NCBI GenBank assembly: GCA_017433125.1 | Contig: JAFRHT010000019.1 | Span: forward strand, 1-35,183 | From: Solobacterium sp. | GTDB lineage: Bacteria > Bacillota_I > Bacilli_A > Erysipelotrichales > Erysipelotrichaceae | Length of the DNA stretch: 35,183 bases | Direction: 5' to 3' | Shown here: positions 394-12,934 of the stretch, piece by piece | Layout: every line of letters begins with the position of its first letter | Numbering within the stretch: position 1 is the stretch's first letter | The notes under the pieces: generated by a model | Seen by the model: only the letters and a program-made list of their open reading frames with translations | Told to the model about the DNA's origin: nothing | The model's database searches: none | Position numbers and translations under genes: made by a program

Positions 394-768
394 TTATTCG
401 GTGAAGCTTCTGCGGTACGCCAGCAGCCCGGCCAGAATGATCAGCGACAGGAACAGAAGTCCGGCCCGCATCCCGGAATCTCCCTGATCCTCTGTATTTG
501 GCACATAAGTCACAGGACCAGTTGGTGTTTTTGCCGGTGCCGGTTTCGGCTTGACCGTCAGGGTTGTCTCCGCGATGCCGTCCTTGAAGATGAATTTCAC
601 TGTATGTGCACCTTCGGACAGTGTGTTCAGATATGATTTGCTCAGCGCGGCATTCAGGCTGCCCGATGCAGCGGTATAATCTGACGGCGCAATGGCGGTG
701 CCGTCTGCTTCTATGCCTTCAAACAGCGCATACGTCTTATCGTCACTGATGCTCCGGTTGACTTTATA
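394..768 (-). pseudogene. C-terminal remnant of a membrane-anchored surface protein (X2/Ig-like domain)
   Basis: An open frame of about 124 codons runs from 768 to TAA (394-396), but the recognisable domain begins without a start codon. The only ATG (600) lies inside it. The N-terminal part resembles an X2-type Ig-like module (TYALFEGIEADGTAI, then SYLNTLSEGAHTVKFIF). A Lys/Pro/Ala/Thr-rich spacer follows, then QGDSGM, a hydrophobic segment of about 17 residues and a short Arg-containing tail, which is a typical C-terminal anchor without a classical LPXTG. The frame begins 5 nt inside the end of the YdcF-like gene, so the 5' part was lost at that junction. What is seen is a gene fragment. The surface location is inferred from the tail. 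Confidence 0.65.
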
Positions 769-1801
769 TTACGCCGAATATCCTGAACCCGACCAGCAGC
801 CAGAACAGCCAGCCGGATCCGTATAACACGGCATGTTTCGGTTCGGTATGAACCGCGATGAATTCACGGATCAGGGCACTCGGCCAGAAATAGAAGGCAA
901 CCCGGCTGCCGATCCCTGTACACGCAAGGCCGATTTTCCGGCAGTTCCGCAGTGCCCTGTACACATGATAATTGCCGGTGACCAGGGCAGTATACTTTCT
1001 TCCGTCCAGCCCGTCCAGAATTGCCTTGGAATTCTTCAGGTTTTCCAATGTGTTCGTCGACTGGTCTTCCATGAGAATATCCTTCTCCGGAATACCCAGG
1101 TCCAGCAGATACTGCTTCATGGCGGCGGCTTCCGGTATTGTTTCATCACCGCCCTGCCCGCCGGAGGGAATCAGCACAGGCGGCGTCGGATCACGCCGGT
1201 AAACCGCAACAGCTTTGTCCAGGCGGTCTTTGAGCAGCCGGGAAAGCCGGTTACCCTCAATGAGTCCGGCGCCCAGGATAATGACATAATCGAAATCCCT
1301 TTTGATCGGAATAATCTGCAGGAAAACAGAGTAGATCATGAAGATCAAAAACGCCATAGAACCGTATATGACCGAAACACTGATAAAGACCATGATCCCG
1401 CGCACAAGCAGCCGGGATGTTTCCGGTATCAGGTCCGGGTCACCCATATAGAACATCAGGACAACGGCAATGGTTGCGATTTCCCCGATCAGGATAAGAA
1501 TTCCCAGAACCAGTGACAGCATATGCGGAAGCTGCCGGCCTTCCCGCCGGATCATCACAATGCCGTTATGAATCAGGAAGAACGGGACGATCAACAGCGT
1601 GATGAACACCGTCATGCCGATCATGAACAGAACCCTGCCGCTGTTCTCCCCGGATAGTGCCACGGAAAAAGGAATCAGTGAAAGCAGTGCCAGAAACAAA
1701 AAATTACAGTTACGGTATCTGCTTCTGTCCTTATGAAACGAGTAAGCAAACAGCCCGAATGCAGCCACTGAGATAAGTCCTGTAATAACAATCTGATTCA
1801 C
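764..1801 (-). CDS. YdcF/SanA-type DUF218 membrane protein
   Basis: The 345-residue product has about five membrane segments in its first 165 residues (around 5-21, 34-50, 57-79, 93-119 and 133-165). A DUF218 domain follows, opening with VIILGAGL and containing the family signatures SGGQGGDE, EDQSTNTLEN and VTGNYHVYRA. A last hydrophobic stretch lies near the C-terminus. DUF218 proteins (SanA, ElyC, YdcF) are linked to envelope integrity, but the biochemical role is unsettled. The GTG start is chosen because GGGGAG lies 6 nt upstream. It is the last intact gene of the operon, 34 nt after the MATE fusion, and its end overlaps a surface-protein remnant. The family assignment is confident; the function is not. 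Confidence 0.8.
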   Translation of the reverse strand: MNQIVITGLISVAAFGLFAYSFHKDRSRYRNCNFLFLALLSLIPFSVALSGENSGRVLFMIGMTVFITLLIVPFFLIHNGIVMIRREGRQLPHMLSLVLGILILIGEIATIAVVLMFYMGDPDLIPETSRLLVRGIMVFISVSVIYGSMAFLIFMIYSVFLQIIPIKRDFDYVIILGAGLIEGNRLSRLLKDRLDKAVAVYRRDPTPPVLIPSGGQGGDETIPEAAAMKQYLLDLGIPEKDILMEDQSTNTLENLKNSKAILDGLDGRKYTALVTGNYHVYRALRNCRKIGLACTGIGSRVAFYFWPSALIREFIAVHTEPKHAVLYGSGWLFWLLVGFRIFGVI

Positions 1802-1835: not shown

Positions 1836-3614
1836 CTACATCCGGATCGTCAGTACATTCAGGCCCAGCATGTTTTGATACCGGACCTGTTCGGCAAGTC
1901 CGTAGATCATCCGGATGCCGATATTCTTTGTAATATCTTCCGGGTCAACGATCCGGCTCCGCTCCTCCGGATCAAACGGTACACAGTCATCCCTGACCCT
2001 GAGAATCAGATCATCCGCCTTGCAGACTACCCGGATATCCACCGCATGTTTTTTGCTGTCTTTCCGGAAACCATGGGCCACAACATTGCCGGCCATCTCC
2101 TCCATTGCCAGCCCGGCCAGTTCGGATTTCCTTTCATCAAAACCCTTCGTCCGGCAGAAAGCCTCCACCTGCTGTGCGACATTAACCACTTCTTCCATGC
2201 TTGCCATTGTCATATCCATCCGGTCACCGTCCTCTGCCCCGAAGGTATCCGGCAGGGCAAGCACAGCTTCCGGAGTTTCCGGCAGCCTGCGGCGGTGCAG
2301 GCAGGCATAGCATAATATGACCGGCAGCAGGCACAGCCCGTTCAGAATATTTGCAATATAAACACCCCGCAGCCCCCACGCCGGGGTCAGCAGAGCAGAG
2401 AATCCGGCAACGAATACAACCCCGTCCAGCAGCGACAAAAGATTTACCGGGAGCTGTTTTCCGAAAACCTGGTTCAGCCCGACAAAATGCATGCAGATCA
2501 CAGACAGCGGCATGCATAACGGCAGCAGCCTGAATCCCTGCACCGTCATCTGGTACACCGGCGCGGCAGCATCACGGTAATACAGCCGGGTGAACGGCAC
2601 TGCGCATGCGGCCAGGCAAACAGCCATGACCGCCGTCAGCGGGACAAAACGCCGTATCATGTTTTTCATGACATCAATCAGCGTCTGACGATCTTCTTCC
2701 CCGACCGCCACACTCATCAGCATGCGCGAAACCGCAATCATGCCGGCCGGAACAGCCCAGAATACACTCAGCAGCGTATTGGCCGTTGCCAGCGCGGAAA
2801 CCCCGGCACTGCCGACATACTGCAGGATCAGGTTATTGAGAACCAGTCCGCGCAGCGCCTGCCAGCAGTAGCTGATGGAACCGGCCGCCCCGAGCAGGAT
2901 TATTTCCACAGCGTCATGCCGCCGCATGCTGTTCCGTTTGAATTTCACCTTTGACTTTCCGGAAAGAAAATACCCGGCCTGAACACACAGAAGGGCCCAT
3001 TGCGACAGCGAAGCCGCCAGCGCCAGCCCCAGGGTGCCGGCATGCATTCTGACAACGAACAGGTAATTGAACAGCATTGTTGCGGCAAGCAGTACCGCGA
3101 CCCCGGCAGCTGTCCGCCGGTTCTGGTTCTCCAGGGAAAGAAACGCTGCCAGCTGCTGCGTCATCATCAGCGGGATCACCCCGGCCGCCTGGCCGATAAT
3201 ATACAGATTCAGATAGGCTCTCGCGGCGGCATCCGCACAGATCCACACGGTCAGATTCAGTCCGGCCCCAAGCAGAAGAATCAGTGTGATTACTGCCGCG
3301 GCAGTCAGGGTTGTTACAAGATCCAGAGTGAAAACAGCACCTGTCTGTTCCAGCTGGTTCTTTCCCATATACCGGCCGCAAAGTATCTGTGAACCGGAAA
3401 CCATCATCAGGGTAAGCGCACCGATCAGCATATTTACAGGACTGTACAGGCCCACTGCCGTCATCGCTTCAGGCCCGATGACATTGCCGGCAAACAGGCT
3501 TGAAATGATAACGGTTAAAGCACTCGAGGCTGCCAGCATGATCTGCGCCGGCAGAAGCCTGAAGAGTGTCTTCCTGACAACTGCGCTGTTTCCCGCTTCC
3601 GCCTTAAAAGACAT
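1836..3614 (-). CDS. MATE-family transporter fused to an RsbW-like HATPase domain
   Basis: The product has 592 residues. Residues from about 15 to 440 form the multi-helix MATE fold (AGNVIGPEAMTAVGLYSPVN near the N-terminus, SGSQILCGRYMGK after it), normally a Na+- or H+-driven exporter of drugs or lipid-like substrates. The last 130 residues or so form a soluble serine-kinase/anti-sigma type ATPase domain: N-box AMEEMAGNVVAHGF, G1-like RDDCVPFDP and G2-like NIGIRMIYGL. Ordinary MATE proteins are about 450 residues long and lack this tail. ATG 3614 is preferred (AAAGGGG a few bases upstream). A TTG at 3632 would overlap the preceding gene. An ATP-binding regulatory tail next to a free RsbW-like protein and two STAS proteins suggests transport gated by partner switching; that is inference. 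Confidence 0.85.
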   Translation of the reverse strand: MSFKAEAGNSAVVRKTLFRLLPAQIMLAASSALTVIISSLFAGNVIGPEAMTAVGLYSPVNMLIGALTLMMVSGSQILCGRYMGKNQLEQTGAVFTLDLVTTLTAAAVITLILLLGAGLNLTVWICADAAARAYLNLYIIGQAAGVIPLMMTQQLAAFLSLENQNRRTAAGVAVLLAATMLFNYLFVVRMHAGTLGLALAASLSQWALLCVQAGYFLSGKSKVKFKRNSMRRHDAVEIILLGAAGSISYCWQALRGLVLNNLILQYVGSAGVSALATANTLLSVFWAVPAGMIAVSRMLMSVAVGEEDRQTLIDVMKNMIRRFVPLTAVMAVCLAACAVPFTRLYYRDAAAPVYQMTVQGFRLLPLCMPLSVICMHFVGLNQVFGKQLPVNLLSLLDGVVFVAGFSALLTPAWGLRGVYIANILNGLCLLPVILCYACLHRRRLPETPEAVLALPDTFGAEDGDRMDMTMASMEEVVNVAQQVEAFCRTKGFDERKSELAGLAMEEMAGNVVAHGFRKDSKKHAVDIRVVCKADDLILRVRDDCVPFDPEERSRIVDPEDITKNIGIRMIYGLAEQVRYQNMLGLNVLTIRM

Positions 3615-3624
3615 ATATCCCCTT

Positions 3625-4404
3625 TTACTCAATCAGTCCGAAGTGTCTCAGTGCCTTCTCAATGCCGCGGTTATCCACTGAATCCGTAACATAATCAGCC
3701 GCTGCCTTGACCGTATCACTGGCATTGCCCATGGCTACGCCGATTCCGGCAAATTTCAGCATCTCGATATCATTCTCGCCGTCCCCGAAAGCCATGATCT
3801 GGGAACGGTCCAGTCCTTCTTCATCCAGGAATTTCTGAATCCCCGCGGACTTTCCGCCGCCCTTCGGGATAATATCAATGCCGGTATCGTTCCAGCTGGT
3901 AACCGAGCACTCGTCCAGCAGGTCATCCAGCAGCTGTTTCTGATGCTGCGGGACAAAGGCCAGGATCTGATAGACGTTTTCCCCGGTATAACCGCCGACT
4001 TCCGGTACGGTTCCTTTGGTATCATGCTGGGTCTTGATCACGGTTTCATTGATGTAATTGATATACCGGTCGTTTTCACCGATCATGACAAACGGAATGC
4101 GCTTAGCCGTGAAAATCCTCGACAGGACTTCCATCTCCCCCTTGTCAATCGGGGTTCCGGCATATACTTTCCGGCTCGCATCCAGCATCAGGTTCCCGTT
4201 CAAAGTGAGGTAGCCGTCAAACGGGATATCACTGACCGGCAGTTTGGACAGTTCGATCATATGCCGGCCAGTCGCAACCACCGTTTTGATGCCCCTGAGC
4301 CGGAGCTCATGCAGTGCCCGCCGGGTGCTGGCCGGAACGTCATTCTGCTTATGCGACATCAGCGTACCGTCCACATCGAAAAAGATTGCGTTGATATCCG
4401 TCAT
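3625..4404 (-). CDS. Cof-type HAD-IIB phosphatase
   Basis: A 259-residue cytosolic HAD-superfamily hydrolase of the Cof/YbiV type. Motif I is FFDVDGTL (D10 nucleophile, D12 acid/base), motif II is VVATGRH, and the C-terminal motifs are the lysine in KGGGKSAGI and FGDGENDIEML. The middle cap domain is the IIB type. Family members dephosphorylate sugar phosphates, FMN or PLP, and the substrate cannot be read here. It lies 28 nt after the RsbW-like gene and its stop is 10 nt before the MATE fusion start, so it is co-transcribed with the regulatory set. It is the only clearly cytosolic phosphatase in the operon, which has no PP2C gene; whether that matters is speculative. Confidence 0.85.
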   Translation of the reverse strand: MTDINAIFFDVDGTLMSHKQNDVPASTRRALHELRLRGIKTVVATGRHMIELSKLPVSDIPFDGYLTLNGNLMLDASRKVYAGTPIDKGEMEVLSRIFTAKRIPFVMIGENDRYINYINETVIKTQHDTKGTVPEVGGYTGENVYQILAFVPQHQKQLLDDLLDECSVTSWNDTGIDIIPKGGGKSAGIQKFLDEEGLDRSQIMAFGDGENDIEMLKFAGIGVAMGNASDTVKAAADYVTDSVDNRGIEKALRHFGLIE

Positions 4405-4432: not shown

Positions 4433-4843
4433 TCAGCTGATCTGCTTCCTGATCGTCAGAATATTCTGACCGCCGCTGTATTCGTAGTGCACATCATCCA
4501 TGGTTTTTTTCACCAGATAAATACCCAGCCCGCCGATATTTCTTTCCTCCGGTCCCAGCATCAGGTCCGGATCCGGCTTCGCCAGCGGGTCAAACGGCCG
4601 GCCATGATCGATAAAGGCAATCACCACCGCAGCCGGGTCCTTCTCCGTCTCCACCCGGACTGTCGCCTCGCCGCCTTCGGGGCCGTAGGCATACCTGGCA
4701 ATGTTGCTGAAAATCTCATCGACGGCCACCGCGATCTGAATCTGCGCTTTCCGGCTGCAGTCCAGCTTTTCAAGCTGCTCCTCCACAAAGGCCGTCACGG
4801 TCGGAATGCTTTCGATCCGGGCCGCAATTGTCATTTCTTTCAT
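4433..4843 (-). CDS. RsbW/SpoIIAB-like serine kinase (anti-sigma type ATPase)
   Basis: A 136-residue GHKL ATPase of the anti-sigma type. The N-box contains E43 and N47 (VDEIFSNIARYAY), the G1 box is IDHGRPFDP (D79), and the G2 box is GGLGIYLVKKTMD (around 104-116). Such proteins bind ATP, phosphorylate a Ser on a partner STAS protein, and sequester a sigma factor or other client. It sits 24 nt after the STAS-APH gene and directly upstream of the Cof phosphatase. No sigma factor gene is nearby, so the client may lie elsewhere in the genome or be the MATE fusion. Family call confident, client unknown. Confidence 0.85.
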   Translation of the reverse strand: MKEMTIAARIESIPTVTAFVEEQLEKLDCSRKAQIQIAVAVDEIFSNIARYAYGPEGGEATVRVETEKDPAAVVIAFIDHGRPFDPLAKPDPDLMLGPEERNIGGLGIYLVKKTMDDVHYEYSGGQNILTIRKQIS

Positions 4844-4867: not shown

Positions 4868-6064
4868 TCAGCCACCCTGGGCATCTGTATCCCCGTCTTC
4901 AAAGGACAGCGAGTCAACCCGTTCGAGCAGCTCCGAAAGATGGCTCTTCCAGAGTTCGGCAGTCACCTTGTCCTCCTCCGAGTTATTGGAAGGATGCCGG
5001 TACTTCCAGCTGATCAGCCGGGTATAGGATACACAGCGGATCTTATCTTCCAGTTTCTTCAGTTTCTCTTCATCTTCCGTCTCAAAATAGGCCTGCAGGC
5101 ACTTATGCCAGAATGTCCGGGCTGTTTCCGGACTGAAGCCCTGGAAGTCCCTGACAATTTCCGGATTGTATTCGGAGAAGCCGATGTAGGAGTTGTACAT
5201 CTGGGCCAGTTCATAGATCGGATACCCGGCACAGAGTGTATCCATGTCAATCAGCAGGACTTCATCACCGGCCAGCACGATATTCTTTGTATGGTAATCC
5301 CCGTGGATCATATGATCGGAATCCGGCATGCCCGCAATCAGCTGTTCCAGCTTCCTGCTTTCGGCTTCCGGCAGATCCGCCCTGATTTCATTCTCCCACT
5401 TGACGATTTTCTCTTTGGACGAAGGCAGTTTGCCTTCCGGCACCGTGATGCCGTGAACTTTCTTCAGCAGATTGATATACTCAGTGACGCACCAGTCCAT
5501 CCGCTCCGGCTCATCAGCCAGGATCTTGGCAAAGGAACGGGCATTGAGCAGTTCAAAAACCGAGCCGTAGCTGTCACCGACCTTCACGACGTCATAGGAT
5601 ATGGCAGTCGGCACGCCCAGGATCAGCGCCAGCCGGGCCACTTCCCGCTCATGCTGGATATCCGCCAGCGCGTCCGCGTTTTTATAGACTTTGACAACAT
5701 TGTCCTTGTCAACCCGGTATACCTTGCCGTTGAAGCCTTCACCGATGACTTCACATCCCTCCACAGAAATGACTTTATACGCTTTTTCTACCGTCATCAT
5801 CTCCGTAAAGCCGGTCGTTTCAAGAATTTCATAGACTTCCGGTGAGGCGTTGATGATCCTGACATCCGGCCATGTTTTCTTCACCCGCAGAATCACCCGC
5901 AGGCCGGCACTGGATATATATTCCAGTTCTTCAACATCCAGGGTGACAGCGGTATCCGTTTTTCCTTCCAGCTGTTTCAGAATATCGTTTTCAATTTCGG
6001 CGGAATTGGCCGAATCGATCCGGCCGCTCAGCCTGATCATTACTGTGTTGTCCATCTGCGTCAT
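4868..6064 (-). CDS. STAS domain fused to an APH-type kinase
   Basis: The product has 398 residues. Residues 1-95 are a STAS (anti-sigma antagonist) domain with LEYISSAGLRVIL; S52 aligns with the phosphoacceptor Ser of SpoIIAA/RsbV. From about residue 100 an aminoglycoside-phosphotransferase/choline-kinase fold follows: glycine loop GEGFNGKVYRV, lysine K125 in VVKVYK, catalytic HGDYHTKN (H254, D256, N261) and metal-binding LIDMD (D273). All key kinase residues are present, so it should be active on a small molecule or a protein. It lies 30 nt after the free STAS gene and 24 nt before the RsbW-like gene. The fusion implies that kinase activity is tied to STAS phosphorylation state (inference). 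It is unlikely to be a drug-resistance enzyme in this setting. Confidence 0.85.
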   Translation of the reverse strand: MTQMDNTVMIRLSGRIDSANSAEIENDILKQLEGKTDTAVTLDVEELEYISSAGLRVILRVKKTWPDVRIINASPEVYEILETTGFTEMMTVEKAYKVISVEGCEVIGEGFNGKVYRVDKDNVVKVYKNADALADIQHEREVARLALILGVPTAISYDVVKVGDSYGSVFELLNARSFAKILADEPERMDWCVTEYINLLKKVHGITVPEGKLPSSKEKIVKWENEIRADLPEAESRKLEQLIAGMPDSDHMIHGDYHTKNIVLAGDEVLLIDMDTLCAGYPIYELAQMYNSYIGFSEYNPEIVRDFQGFSPETARTFWHKCLQAYFETEDEEKLKKLEDKIRCVSYTRLISWKYRHPSNNSEEDKVTAELWKSHLSELLERVDSLSFEDGDTDAQGG

Positions 6065-6094: not shown

Positions 6095-6397
6095 TCACGG
6101 CTCGATTTTCAGAATATCCGTAAATCCGGTAACTTCAAAGATTTCCATGACGACCTCATTGACGTTCACGATTTTCATTGTGCCCTGATTCATCATGGTT
6201 TTCTGGGCCGCCAGCAGCACCCGCAGGCCGGCGGATGAAACGTAGTCAAGGGCAGCAAAATCCAGTGTCAGTTCGCTGATCCCGTCCATGGTTTCCTTCA
6301 GTTCGGCTTCCAGTTCCGGTGAGGTTACGGTATCCAGTCTGCCCTCCAGACTGATGTTGACCTTGCCGGCATCAGTTGTCTTATTGATCTTCAGCAT
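6095..6397 (-). CDS. STAS-domain anti-sigma factor antagonist
   Basis: A single-domain STAS protein of 100 residues, the usual length for SpoIIAA/RsbV proteins. The conserved loop is LDYVSSAGLRVLL, and S55 aligns with the regulatory phosphoserine. The N-terminus (VNISLEGRLDTVTSPELE) is typical. In known systems the unphosphorylated form binds the RsbW-like kinase and frees its client. It is 14 nt downstream of the HAD phosphatase gene and 30 nt upstream of a second STAS domain carried by the APH fusion, with which it shares the SSAGLR loop and the GFT near the C-terminus. The two STAS domains may compete for the same kinase. Confidence 0.9.
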   Translation of the reverse strand: MLKINKTTDAGKVNISLEGRLDTVTSPELEAELKETMDGISELTLDFAALDYVSSAGLRVLLAAQKTMMNQGTMKIVNVNEVVMEIFEVTGFTDILKIEP

Positions 6398-6411: not shown

Positions 6412-7548
6412 TTATTCAGCTGTCTTTTTCCTGACAACCCCGTCTCCGTAAATGGTCGTCCAGTCATTCTTCATGGATACCGGGATCCAGTCATACTGCC
6501 GGCAGAGTTCATACATCTTGTCAGCCTTTGCCGTGTTGCCGTTTTCCCGTTCGGTATCGTCGCAGCACAGCATGAAGGCCAGACTGCGGTACGGATTGCC
6601 GGTCGTGACATATTCAGCCATGCTGGAGTCACCGGTGCTGTTGCCGAAGGAGAGCACCGGCTGCACACCGATCTCCTGGATAATTACCGCAACCTTGTTC
6701 ATCTTCAGGTTCTTGATGATGAATTCGCCGCCCAGCACCAGTTCGTCCTGGTCGTCAAACACATAGCCAAGACCATCCGTGCCGCCCTGCTTGCGGGTCA
6801 CGACCGTCTCGTCGGAACCGATGATCTGTCCCATCGGCACATGCAGCGGGGACTGGTCGACAATGCCCCGGACGATGAAGCGGTCCGTGCCGCTGACCAC
6901 ATAGACAGTAAAATCATTTTCCTGCAGGTAATTCACGACTTCCAGCATCGGCTGATACCAGCCCTCGCCGCGCTTCATGCCTTCATAACCCGGCATGGGC
7001 AGCTGCTTGAACGCCTGGATATACGCATTGAATTCCGCCAGGGTCATGCCGGCAAAGGAGGAAGCGATCGCCTGCCCGTGATCAACTTCAAGCCCGGCAA
7101 ATGACGCGCCGGTCTCATTCTGCTCCACGATTTTACCGGCAATTTCCTTTTCGAAATCACTGGCTTTGTCAATATAATCCGGATCTTCCAGAACCCGGTG
7201 CACCAGCAGGGTGTAGTCAAAGTAATTCGGATCGGTTTCGCAGAACAGGGTCCCGTCCAGGTCAAACACGGCAATCCGGTTTTCCACCGGGATATAATCC
7301 GGGCTGTCCGGATCCGTGATGGCTTCCATAAACGAAATGAGTTCTTTGCGGGCCGGCGCGTCTTCCTGCCACAGCGACAGGACTTCCGCCGCGGATTTCT
7401 CCGCTGTTTCTGTCTCAGCCGGTTCTGCCGGTTCTTCCCCCCGGCTTCCGGTTCCCGCAAAATGCATCAGATTAGTGATTACCAGCAGGCAGACGGCAAT
7501 GATCGCCGTCAGCCGCCAGGCCTTCAGAGCCTTATTCTGTTCTTCCAT
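6412..7548 (-). CDS. Membrane-anchored, probably extracytoplasmic HAD phosphatase
   Basis: The product has 378 residues. A Lys/Arg-containing N-terminus is followed by a hydrophobic segment (about 14-31) without a lipobox, then a Glu/Pro/Ala-rich linker and the HAD domain. Motif I is AVFDLDGTLF, motif II is YVVSGTDRF, and a late acidic motif is SFGNSTGDSSM. The charge pattern predicts a cytosolic N-terminus and an external catalytic domain, similar in topology to secreted acid phosphatases. ATG 7548 is chosen because GGAGG lies 7 nt upstream; longer frames to 7626 lack a site. It is the first gene of the seven-gene operon. The substrate is unknown. An external enzyme cannot directly be the phosphatase for the cytosolic STAS proteins. 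Confidence 0.8.
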   Translation of the reverse strand: MEEQNKALKAWRLTAIIAVCLLVITNLMHFAGTGSRGEEPAEPAETETAEKSAAEVLSLWQEDAPARKELISFMEAITDPDSPDYIPVENRIAVFDLDGTLFCETDPNYFDYTLLVHRVLEDPDYIDKASDFEKEIAGKIVEQNETGASFAGLEVDHGQAIASSFAGMTLAEFNAYIQAFKQLPMPGYEGMKRGEGWYQPMLEVVNYLQENDFTVYVVSGTDRFIVRGIVDQSPLHVPMGQIIGSDETVVTRKQGGTDGLGYVFDDQDELVLGGEFIIKNLKMNKVAVIIQEIGVQPVLSFGNSTGDSSMAEYVTTGNPYRSLAFMLCCDDTERENGNTAKADKMYELCRQYDWIPVSMKNDWTTIYGDGVVRKKTAE

Positions 7549-7569
7549 AATGATTCCTCCGGATGACCC

Positions 7570-7586
7570 GTTTTCGCAATGAAAAC
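7570..7586. promoter_or_regulatory. Inverted repeat upstream of the STAS/MATE operon
   Basis: GTTTTC-GCAAT-GAAAAC, a perfect 6-bp inverted repeat, lies between the putative promoter and the first ribosome site. It could be an operator or a leader hairpin; no regulator is identified. Confidence 0.35.
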
Positions 7587-7614
7587 ATGTGCCGCCTCTT
7601 ATCACTCCATGTAC

Positions 7615-7645
7615 ATGATAACCCATTCCCGCCCCAATATGTTAA
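7615..7645 (-). promoter_or_regulatory. Weak candidate promoter for the STAS/MATE operon
   Basis: On the minus strand, TTAACA (7640-7645) and TATCAT (7615-7620) are separated by 19 nt, just after the galT terminator. The spacing is long, so this is a tentative call. Confidence 0.3.
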
Positions 7646-7648
7646 ACA

Positions 7649-7681
7649 GAAAAAAGACTTCTGCCCTTGCAGACAGAAGCC
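7649..7681 (-). terminator. Rho-independent terminator of maf-galT
   Basis: The minus strand reads CTTCTG, a 10-nt loop, CAGAAG, then TCTTTTTT. It follows the galT stop by about 20 nt and separates galT from the STAS/MATE operon. Confidence 0.65.
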
Positions 7682-7700
7682 TGTTCCGCAAAATATGCGT

Positions 7701-10012: not shown

Positions 10013-10921
10013 ATGAAAAAACCGGTACTGGTAATTTTAGCAGCGGGCATCGGCAGCCGCTATGGAGGAATGAAACAGATTGACGGCGTGGGCAATCACG
10101 GTGAACCGATTATCGAGTTTTCCATCTATGACGCATACCGGGCCGGCTTTGAAAAAGTAATACTGATCATCAAGAAGGAGCACGAGGCTGTCTTTCGTTC
10201 CTGCCTGACTGACCGGGTAGAGCGGCACATGGAGGTCGGTTTCGCCTATCAGGATATGCATGACCTGCCGGACGGCCTGGAAGTGCCGGAAGGCAGAACT
10301 AAGCCGTGGGGCACAACCCATGCCCTGTGGGCCTGCCGGGATATCGTGGACGGACCGTTCGCGATCATCAACGCGGATGACTTCTACGGCCGCAATGCCT
10401 ACAAGACAATCTATGATTATCTCTGCAATGAGATCGAAGATGACAAATACGCGATGGTGGGCTGGCAGTGCAGAAACACCCTGACTGATCACGGTACGGT
10501 GACCCGGGGCGTCTGCCAGACAAATCCGGAAGGTTATCTGACCGATATCGTGGAGATCAAGGAGATTGCCAAGAAAGACGGAAAGTGCATCGCGATCCGG
10601 AACGGCAAGCCGGAGGAACTGCCGGATGACACGCTGGTATCAATGAACTTCTGGGGCTTCACACCAAAGATCTTCGCGGAAGTCGAGCCGATCATGGCCG
10701 CTTACCTGAAGACCAATATCCCGGTCAACCCGGAGAAATGCGAGCACGTGATTCCGACAGCGGTCGGCGATCTTGTGGAAAGCGGGAAATGCACCGTGAA
10801 GGTGCTCTCCAGCGCGGATGACTGGTTCGGCGTTACCTACCAGGAAGACAAGCCGGAAGTCATTAGGCGGATCCAGGAACTGAAGGATGCCGGGGTATAT
10901 CCCGACATCGTCTGGGAATAA
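10013..10921 (+). CDS. Sugar-1-phosphate nucleotidyltransferase
   Basis: A 302-residue GT-A fold nucleotidyltransferase. The N-terminus has the pyrophosphorylase signature LAAGIGSRYGGMKQ (GxGxRxG with a downstream Lys), and INADDFYG supplies the metal-binding Asp. RTKPWGTTHALWAC is typical for a group of Bacillota and bifidobacterial proteins that activate hexose or N-acetylhexosamine phosphates. The exact sugar and nucleotide cannot be read. The AAAGGAG ribosome site is 15 nt from the ATG, longer than usual, and no better in-frame start exists. It diverges from maf-galT, so a joint role in galactose or UDP-sugar supply is possible. Confidence 0.8.
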   Translation: MKKPVLVILAAGIGSRYGGMKQIDGVGNHGEPIIEFSIYDAYRAGFEKVILIIKKEHEAVFRSCLTDRVERHMEVGFAYQDMHDLPDGLEVPEGRTKPWGTTHALWACRDIVDGPFAIINADDFYGRNAYKTIYDYLCNEIEDDKYAMVGWQCRNTLTDHGTVTRGVCQTNPEGYLTDIVEIKEIAKKDGKCIAIRNGKPEELPDDTLVSMNFWGFTPKIFAEVEPIMAAYLKTNIPVNPEKCEHVIPTAVGDLVESGKCTVKVLSSADDWFGVTYQEDKPEVIRRIQELKDAGVYPDIVWE

Positions 10922-10925
10922 CAAT

Positions 10926-10970
10926 AAAAGGTGCGGGCATGAGCCTTCCGAATAAAGAAGTATTATGACA
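10926..10970 (+). repeat. Left 45-bp inverted repeat of the recombinase island
   Basis: It starts 5 nt after the nucleotidyltransferase stop. It matches the reverse complement of 15915-15959 at 36 of 45 positions without gaps, including blocks AAAAGGTGCGG, TGAGC and ATAAAGAAGTAT. The inner part can form a small stem, AATA-AAGAAG-TATT. Confidence 0.75.
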
Positions 10971-10974
10971 AATT

Positions 10975-11005
10975 CGGTGTAACCTTAATGGTTATGCCGT
11001 TTTTG
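10975..11005 (+). terminator. Probable terminator after the nucleotidyltransferase
   Basis: CGG-TG-TAACC, loop TTAAT, GGTTA-TG-CCG, then TTTTTG. The stem has a small internal mismatch. It lies just inside the left inverted repeat. Confidence 0.5.
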
Positions 11006-11028
11006 TTTGTTGTGTTTGATAGTAGCCG

Positions 11029-12630
<1,602 letters not shown>

Positions 12631-12670
12631 TTACCTCCTGTAGTTTTAAGTACTTGTTTTTTTCTACAGT

Positions 12671-12684
12671 CAGACACACAACAG
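12671..12684 (-). repeat. Short motif shared with the right island end
   Basis: The minus strand reads CTGTTGTGTGTCTG upstream of the recombinase gene. CTGTTGTGTGCCTG is on the plus strand at 15903-15916, overlapping the right inverted repeat: 13 of 14 bases agree. It may be a recombinase or regulator binding site. Confidence 0.35.
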
Positions 12685-12724
12685 TGCTGAAAGTAGTATA
12701 CCATTTCATACATCATCAATTCCA

Positions 12725-12934
12725 TCATCCGTTGTCTTGTTCCAGAAGATATTTGTTCCAGATGGATGCCAGGGAATGGATTCCTTCATAATCGGTTTCT
12801 ATCTCATAGAGGGTGTTGCCAATCTGTTCATAGATCTTCTGTTTCGGTAAGAAATGTGATGAGAAGTTCTTAAAGGTTATTACTCCGTTGTCATCGATCG
12901 AATAATTGTGTTTTCTGGTAGTTGTTTCTGACAT
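12725..12934 (-). CDS. 69-residue hypothetical protein of the island
   Basis: A small polar protein without membrane segments, starting MSETTTRKHNYSIDDNG and containing IGNTLYEIETDYEG. The ATG at 12934 has GGAGTG upstream at a usual distance. It is 100 nt upstream of the recombinase gene on the same strand, so the two may share a transcript. Small ORFs in this position of clostridial elements include TnpW-like proteins. The IGxTxYE pattern is faintly similar, but I cannot assign it. The function is unknown. Confidence 0.6.
   Translation of the reverse strand: MSETTTRKHNYSIDDNGVITFKNFSSHFLPKQKIYEQIGNTLYEIETDYEGIHSLASIWNKYLLEQDNG

Follow-up and report, generated by a model that had tools for sequence, protein, structure and literature searches.

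DinF-type MATEs such as PfMATE and DinF-BH share their fold with one half of a protein encoded in a 35,183-nucleotide stretch of Solobacterium sp. DNA (contig JAFRHT010000019.1 of assembly GCA_017433125.1, hereafter the window), and PfMATE is the best match of that half by both structure and profile. Unlike these transporters, the fusion protein of the window has a GHKL tail, Arg255, Arg297 and a GEED motif, and its family is without the TM1 Asp in 55/55 members and without the TM5 Asp in 47/55. RsbW, SpoIIAB and UsfX share the fold and the N-box with the tail, and the operon of the fusion encodes STAS partners; in contrast to them, the tail is membrane-bound on a MATE, it has Cys in G1 and Asn in G2, and no SigB/F-type sigma factor is over the cutoff in ten genomes of the same genus.

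Partner switching with a non-sigma output is described for SiaABCD of Pseudomonas aeruginosa, which comprises a PP2C, a HATPase kinase and an anti-sigma-antagonist-like switch protein (PMC7647112, in the part of the text available), and the tail of the fusion also matches SiaB in fold. The SiaABCD output is a diguanylate cyclase according to the same partial text, whereas the candidate output or input here is a MATE with a HATPase of its own. CbrA, an SLC5 transporter-kinase fusion (PMC13022988, available in part), and Ks-Amt5, an Amt transporter-kinase fusion (PMC5764959, likewise), combine a transporter fold with a signalling kinase as the present fusion does, but they use histidine kinases, while the present tail, which sits on a MATE, belongs to the Ser-kinase/STAS type. 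In SLC26/SulP proteins a transporter is joined to a partner-switch-type domain (PMC8256260), although the fused domain is the STAS; in the present protein it is the HATPase partner that is fused, with STAS as a free protein. The available text of that paper covers STAS-only proteins and SulP transporters, that of PMC11109136 covers transporter-receptor links, and MATE is mentioned nowhere in either available text. In the open-access literature, we found no published description of a MATE-HATPase or MATE-RsbW-type fusion. Each half, the partner-switch circuit, transporter-kinase fusions and partner switching without a sigma output are already known.

Sigma factors and a few enzymes are the main known targets of partner switching. 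In this gut bacterium, its components are encoded around a drug-pump-like membrane protein, a MATE, which suggests that a known signalling circuit is connected directly to a membrane transporter or sensor. Our main reading, to which we assign a probability of about one half, is that the fusion acts as a membrane-bound partner in a partner switch without a SigB/F-type sigma factor, and that STAS docking gates the MATE half.

The fusion protein

The fusion and its two halves lie as follows, and residue numbers are those of the 592-aa version throughout.

1836 to 3614, minus strand: MATE-HATPase fusion protein, 592 aa (ORF, Pfam and start-codon placement)
2280 to 3614, minus strand: MATE half, aa 1-445, MATE/MOP fold (Pfam MatE, AF2 and PfMATE match)
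1839 to 2222, minus strand: GHKL tail, aa 465-592, RsbW/SpoIIAB class (Pfam, tail-only AF2 model and PDB matches)

The preferred start is the ATG at 3614, with the Shine-Dalgarno-like AAGGGG just 5' of it, and this agrees with the end coordinate of 3614 in the first-pass annotation; the mechanically called ORF begins at TTG 3632 and gives a 598-aa version. In the 592-aa protein, MatE (PF01554) scores 42.7 bits against a gathering cutoff of 24.9, and HATPase_c_2 (PF13581) scores 52.1 bits against 27.4 in the same frame; both are also above their cutoffs in the 598-aa version. A contig scan gave 332 relatives in one genome collection, the best 80 of which were taken as loci, and two family alignments were made, one of 22 fusions and one of 55 members.

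The MATE-HATPase fusion is confirmed as a real protein, a single minus-strand ORF that arose neither by chance nor by a join. The two halves are co-located in 80/80 of the best loci, Pfam detects both domains in all 55 aligned members, and a copy 98% identical lies in a separate public assembly, on the Solobacterium sp. MAG contig of locus L063, the nearest named relative. The possibility raised in the first-pass annotation that an assembly error had joined two genes is excluded by this copy and the 80 loci. Comparison of the window with the 94% and 72% identical copies gave dN/dS values of 0.086 and 0.231 for the MATE half and 0.107 and 0.151 for the tail, so that purifying selection acts on both. 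Distances in the MATE half and in the tail correlate (r 0.85 for 22 rows and 0.64 for 55 rows), with 0/2000 permutations reaching either value. A few broken copies elsewhere (L130, L041, G152:C18) could be taken as a sign of an assembly chimera or a decaying fusion, but the 80 loci with both halves, the dN/dS range of 0.09-0.23 and the presence of both Pfam domains in 55/55 members leave that explanation a negligible probability.

The operon and the circuit in the host genome

The fusion belongs to a minus-strand run of seven genes (HAD, STAS, STAS-APH, HATPase_c_2, Cof-type HAD, fusion and DUF218), with gaps of 10 to 34 bases within the run.

6412 to 7626, minus strand: HAD-superfamily protein that opens the run (Pfam)
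6095 to 6397, minus strand: STAS-only protein with the motif YVSSAGL (Pfam and motif)
4868 to 6064, minus strand: STAS-APH protein, STAS at about aa 1-96 and then an APH-type domain (Pfam)
4433 to 4843, minus strand: free HATPase_c_2 protein, G1 (DHGRPFDP) and G2 (GGLG) both canonical (Pfam and alignment)
3625 to 4404, minus strand: Cof-type HAD phosphatase (Pfam)
764 to 1801, minus strand: DUF218 protein that closes the run; relatives have it near the fusion as well (Pfam)
7655 to 7682, minus strand: terminator-like hairpin and T run ahead of the first gene (consensus scan only)

The true start of the first HAD gene is probably internal, because its close homologues have only 379-381 aa. The YVSSAGL motif of the STAS-only protein holds what we take to be the acceptor Ser, assigned via SpoIIAA/RsbV numbering, and the free HATPase is, by its sequence, likely the STAS kinase. 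The window operon lacks a PP2C gene, and promoter-like sites around it are at chance level (5 observed, 6.2 expected). A role in anti-phage defence was considered and rejected, as six proteins of the run had no PADLOC match. At L086 (7416-8969) and L076 (786-2339), two of the window operon genes are joined into one STAS-APH-HATPase protein. At L034 (10269-11426), a STAS is fused to a Cof-type HAD on a contig shared with a MATE-HATPase, and the 3625 to 4404 protein is an unfused relative of it.

Profile matches in the host genome assembly (2,176,723 bases) number 4 for STAS, 3 for PP2C, two of which lie at contig ends, and 7 for HATPase_c_2, with 5 of the 7 over the cutoff. STAS and HATPase are thus in the operon and PP2C elsewhere in the genome, and judged by these profile matches, a partner-switch circuit is present in the host, while the usual target class (SigB/F/G) was not found: the SigB/F/G model was over its cutoff in 0/10 same-genus genomes, the host included, and in 1/22 fusion-bearing genomes. 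The host genome has a second partner-switch set: at L145 (G000:C87), STAS and one further ORF are accompanied by a PP2C gene that the contig end truncates, and at L249 (G000:C130) the end of a PP2C gene is followed further along by STAS and HATPase side by side.

Four host proteins have sigma-70 region 2, namely RpoD, a SigA-like protein of 329 aa and two in frames of about 165 aa, and the second, SigA-like sigma factor makes a sigma target of the partner switch still conceivable. Together with the RsbW/SpoIIAB fold class of the tail, it is also what could be said for the fusion as a membrane-bound anti-sigma factor acting on an ordinary or SigA-like sigma factor. We consider that improbable, given the SigB/F/G counts above and because none of the seven genes in the run encodes a sigma factor.

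The GHKL tail and its ATP site

Since structure comparison of the whole model covered mainly residues 7-461, the tail was also folded alone, giving an AF2 model with pLDDT 88.4. UsfX, RsbW and SpoIIAB head its PDB matches (Z 14.4-16.5, rmsd 1.8-3.1, 102-129 residues), compared with a Z of about 8 for histidine kinases. Profile and predicted fold support membership in the anti-sigma-kinase GHKL fold class, as the first-pass annotation had proposed while naming absence of the GHKL fold as a possible objection; the fold is present in the tail-only model, and a chance GHKL resemblance is excluded by the Pfam score together with these fold matches. The resemblance is to the class and has its limits, as the fusion scores 26.8 of the 145 needed for the RsbW equivalog PRK04069 and 20 of 155 for TIGR01924 (NCBIfam), and the weakest tails among the relatives are under the Pfam cutoff.

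The N-, G1- and G2-like boxes were all located where they had been described.

2067 to 2102, minus strand: N-box, aa 505-516 (E506, N510 and H514; ExxxNxxxH), from the alignment of 55
1968 to 1991, minus strand: G1 box, aa 542-549, DDCVPFDP, Gly changed to Cys; C in 55/55
1911 to 1928, minus strand: G2 box, aa 563-568, KNIGIR, first Gly changed to Asn; N564 and G566 in 55/55

Residues E505, E506, N510, H514, D542, D543, C544, N564 and G566 are identical in 55/55 aligned members, so the spelling DDCVPFDP, correctly read at the outset, is no oddity of one protein. The tail departs from the canonical pattern, with no Gly in G1 (DxG) and no GxG in G2 owing to Cys544 and Asn564; in the alignment suggested earlier with the 4433 to 4843 protein, that free HATPase is canonical in G1 (DHG) and G2 (GGLG), and its lid is longer. 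The Cys in G1 is probably derived, because some distant MATE-HATPases (L043, L170, L180, L259 and L260) keep the Gly. The suggestion that ATP binding may be altered is possible in view of the G1 Gly to Cys and G2 Gly to Asn changes, but a dead site is disfavoured: because the Glu, Asn and His of the N-box are invariant in 55/55 members, a modified yet fixed ATP site appears more likely. Outside the 55-member alignment, L027 has Gly where the others have H514.

The MATE half and the lost proton site

The AF2 model of the whole fusion, with the 55 family members as input, has pLDDT 83.4 and pTM 0.79. Its MATE half is nearest to inward-facing PfMATE (6fhz; Z 38.9, rmsd 3.0, 434 aligned residues), and PfMATE is also the best PDB profile match (E 1.1e-23). 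The places of the two acidic residues of the PfMATE proton site are occupied as follows.

3501 to 3503, minus strand: Ser38, in the place of PfMATE Asp41, TM1 proton site (alignments)
3066 to 3068, minus strand: Asn183, in the place of PfMATE Asp184, TM5 proton site (alignments)

Among the 55 members, the TM1 place holds S in 46, T in 8 and A in 1, and is acidic in none, while the TM5 place holds N in 45, D in 8, H in 1 and S in 1; nine plain MATEs aligned alike as a control have Asp at both places (9/9). In DinF-BH, D40N and D184N abolish transport, D40 being the equivalent of PfMATE D41, and NorM and eukaryotic MATEs have Asn at the D184 place (PMC4866600, available in part), so the TM5 loss by itself says little. 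Because the TM1 Asp is lost in every member and the TM5 Asp kept in only 8, the usual DinF-type proton coupling is probably gone in the window subfamily. The first-pass annotation had stated that MATE exporters use ion gradients and do not need ATP; the MATE fold stands, but the ion-gradient remark does not simply carry over to this branch.

In 30 distinct distant HATPase-MATEs, counted by eye, Asp is at the TM1 place in 26 and an acid at the TM5 place in 23, and L259 and L260 have Asp and Glu at the two ion places. As most of these distant proteins retain both acids, the alignments place the fusion before the loss of the acid pair, a loss that sets apart the branch to which the window protein belongs (members with at least 44% identity). 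In the distant HATPase-MATEs compared, we saw no sign that losing the acid pair and losing the ATP site are traded off against each other.

This branch has further residues of its own. Arg255 is found in 54/55 members and Arg297 in 55/55, and both, which lie in helices of the C-lobe, are absent from 9/9 plain MATEs; they are reminiscent of the positively charged C-lobe in the citrate MATE HvAACT1 (described in the available part of PMC12358922). Asp397 is conserved in 53/55 and could be a substitute carboxylate. Glu306, the first Glu of GEED, is in 22/22 fusions of the 22-row alignment and in 0/9 plain MATEs. The GEED motif itself (aa 305-308, about 2691-2702) lies between two C-lobe helices and may be a possible tail contact.

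To our knowledge, RsbW/SpoIIAB-type domains are protein kinases and binding proteins, and we know of no transport motors among them. This weighs against an exporter driven by ATP hydrolysis in the tail, an explanation to which the loss of the acid pair and the retained N-box residues might lend something, and which we regard as very unlikely.

The foremost alternative, less probable than gating by STAS docking, is that the fusion is a transceptor, in which the MATE half would have given up pumping by ordinary coupling and would bind a ligand, perhaps anionic; the ligand would alter the activity of the tail, and the tail would phosphorylate or sequester STAS, so that the signal runs from the membrane to STAS. 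An input role is favoured because the window branch lost the ion site: the TM1 place is S, T or A throughout and the TM5 Asp is rare, plain MATEs and most distant HATPase-MATEs keep the acid pair, and the DinF-BH mutants cited above lose transport. The two C-lobe arginines, the N-box invariant in the 55-member alignment and the precedent of CbrA (PMC13022988, in its available part) are consistent with it. However, operons with a PP2C receptor, which has an N-terminal part of its own, already have an input, other residues may stand in for the acid pair, and kinase activity of a tail with altered G1 and G2 is only putative. We give much the same, slightly lower probability to the wider proposal that a MATE branch without ion-coupling acids became a receptor signalling via an RsbW-type tail to STAS, widespread in rumen and gut Bacillota.

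Gene neighbourhood of the relatives

Upstream context was counted in the 54 of the best 80 (of 332) loci with at least 5.5 kb upstream, and 57 loci served as the downstream control. On the same strand and within 5.7 kb upstream, 20 of the 54 loci have STAS, 14 HATPase, 13 APH, 10 PP2C (SpoIIE) and 5 DUF218, and 21 have any of STAS, HATPase or PP2C; no partner gene lies on the opposite strand within this distance. Downstream, STAS and HATPase are found in 0 of 57 loci, PP2C in 1 on the same strand and 2 on the opposite strand, and DUF218 in 5. The difference for STAS between upstream and downstream gives a Fisher p of 6e-8 with loci treated as independent. In 33/54 loci there is no partner gene within 7 kb upstream, and linkage of the fusion to its partners is common, not general.

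In two genomes of a different Bacilli family (L259 and L260), MATE-HATPase, STAS and PP2C-HATPase stand in a row with gaps of about 4-11 bases, and profile search found no further module gene in the 10.5 kb examined; at L027 and L031, a STAS lies 12-15 bases upstream of the fusion. The partnership with STAS proteins that the first-pass annotation had put forward is in this way backed by gene context, which includes operons of just these three genes. By motif, 36/40 annotated STAS domains in the 80 loci have Ser at the acceptor place. Natural fusions at the loci of relatives comprise STAS-APH-HATPase, PP2C-HATPase, STAS-Cof HAD (L034) and GH3-STAS (L125). The last is a GH3-family protein with a C-terminal STAS (10787-12829), directly behind the MATE-HATPase. 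L097 and L105 have three and four consecutive STAS-only genes, respectively, with a spacing of about 900 bases, followed by PP2C, HATPase and the fusion.

Proposed mechanism

To hypothesize, a PP2C receptor and the free HATPase would set the phosphorylation state of STAS, and unphosphorylated STAS would dock on the MATE-linked tail as RsbV does on RsbW; we infer this binding of tail and STAS from class membership. Docking, together with the nucleotide state of the tail, would then shift the conformation of the MATE half and switch substrate transport on or off. The tail would be a regulator, and export would not be powered by its ATP hydrolysis. In the window subfamily, the MATE half may be driven otherwise (as a facilitator, or by a carboxylate such as Asp397) or may be a ligand sensor, and an ordinary gated pump is disfavoured because the DinF acid pair is lost there. 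We favour an output role, such as the STAS-binding gate suggested in the first-pass annotation, since a receptor, a phosphatase and a kinase are already provided by neighbouring genes. Against gating stand the loci without partners, the absence of an operon PP2C, the G1 and G2 boxes unlike those of RsbW, the equivalog scores far below cutoff, and the occurrence of HATPase_c_2 and PP2C in fusion-negative genomes of the genus as well.

Of the two halves, the tail is the better conserved, with a mean identity of 0.45 in the 22-row alignment (MATE half, 0.29), and it persists on MATE proteins with only 15-20% identity to the window protein, as would be expected if it sequestered STAS or another partner while the MATE half were mainly an anchor or an independent transporter. 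Purifying selection on the MATE half and its own fixed signature, e.g., Glu306, make this unlikely.

The MATE of the window carries one part of the switch in its own chain, and STAS phosphorylation could directly switch membrane transport or sensing; a MATE transceptor, if true, would signal by partner switching through Ser phosphorylation, where other systems have a His-Asp relay. The branch without the usual proton site offers a clean test of roles of the MATE fold besides antiport, and the minimal three-gene operon of the L259/L260 type is small enough for reconstruction.

Distribution across genomes

The family is large, with its 332 relatives in one genome collection, and some members are in strain-titled genomes: among the 80 loci, the strain-titled records without a MAG mark are L096 (Sarcina sp. 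DSM 11001), L126 (Lachnospiraceae bacterium P6B14) and L139 (Butyrivibrio sp. INlla14). STAS and PP2C are present somewhere in the genome in 31/31 fusion-bearing genomes examined. Within the genus, PP2C is found in 15/15 fusion-positive and 10/15 fusion-negative genomes (Fisher p 0.042, genomes treated as independent); with strong PP2C matches only, a cut set after inspection of the table, the fusion-negative count is 7/15 (Fisher p 0.002, on the same assumption of independence). HATPase_c_2 is in 13/15 fusion-negative genomes of the genus and does not discriminate.

In 12 genomes behind named loci, the tail profile gave 33 matches, 30 of which were taken as loci, and the MATE half was present at 28 of the 30; of the two loci without it, L173 encodes a free HATPase and L179 a PP2C protein. 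In a sample of the phylum, 6/295 genomes had a tail match, which by inspection were MATE fusions in G000, G204, G214 and G278, a broken frame in G152 and a PP2C protein in G219. The fusion copy at L130 (3580-5343) has an in-frame stop in its tail, and those at L041 (11019-12799) and G152:C18 (L150, L153) have an in-frame stop or a split frame.
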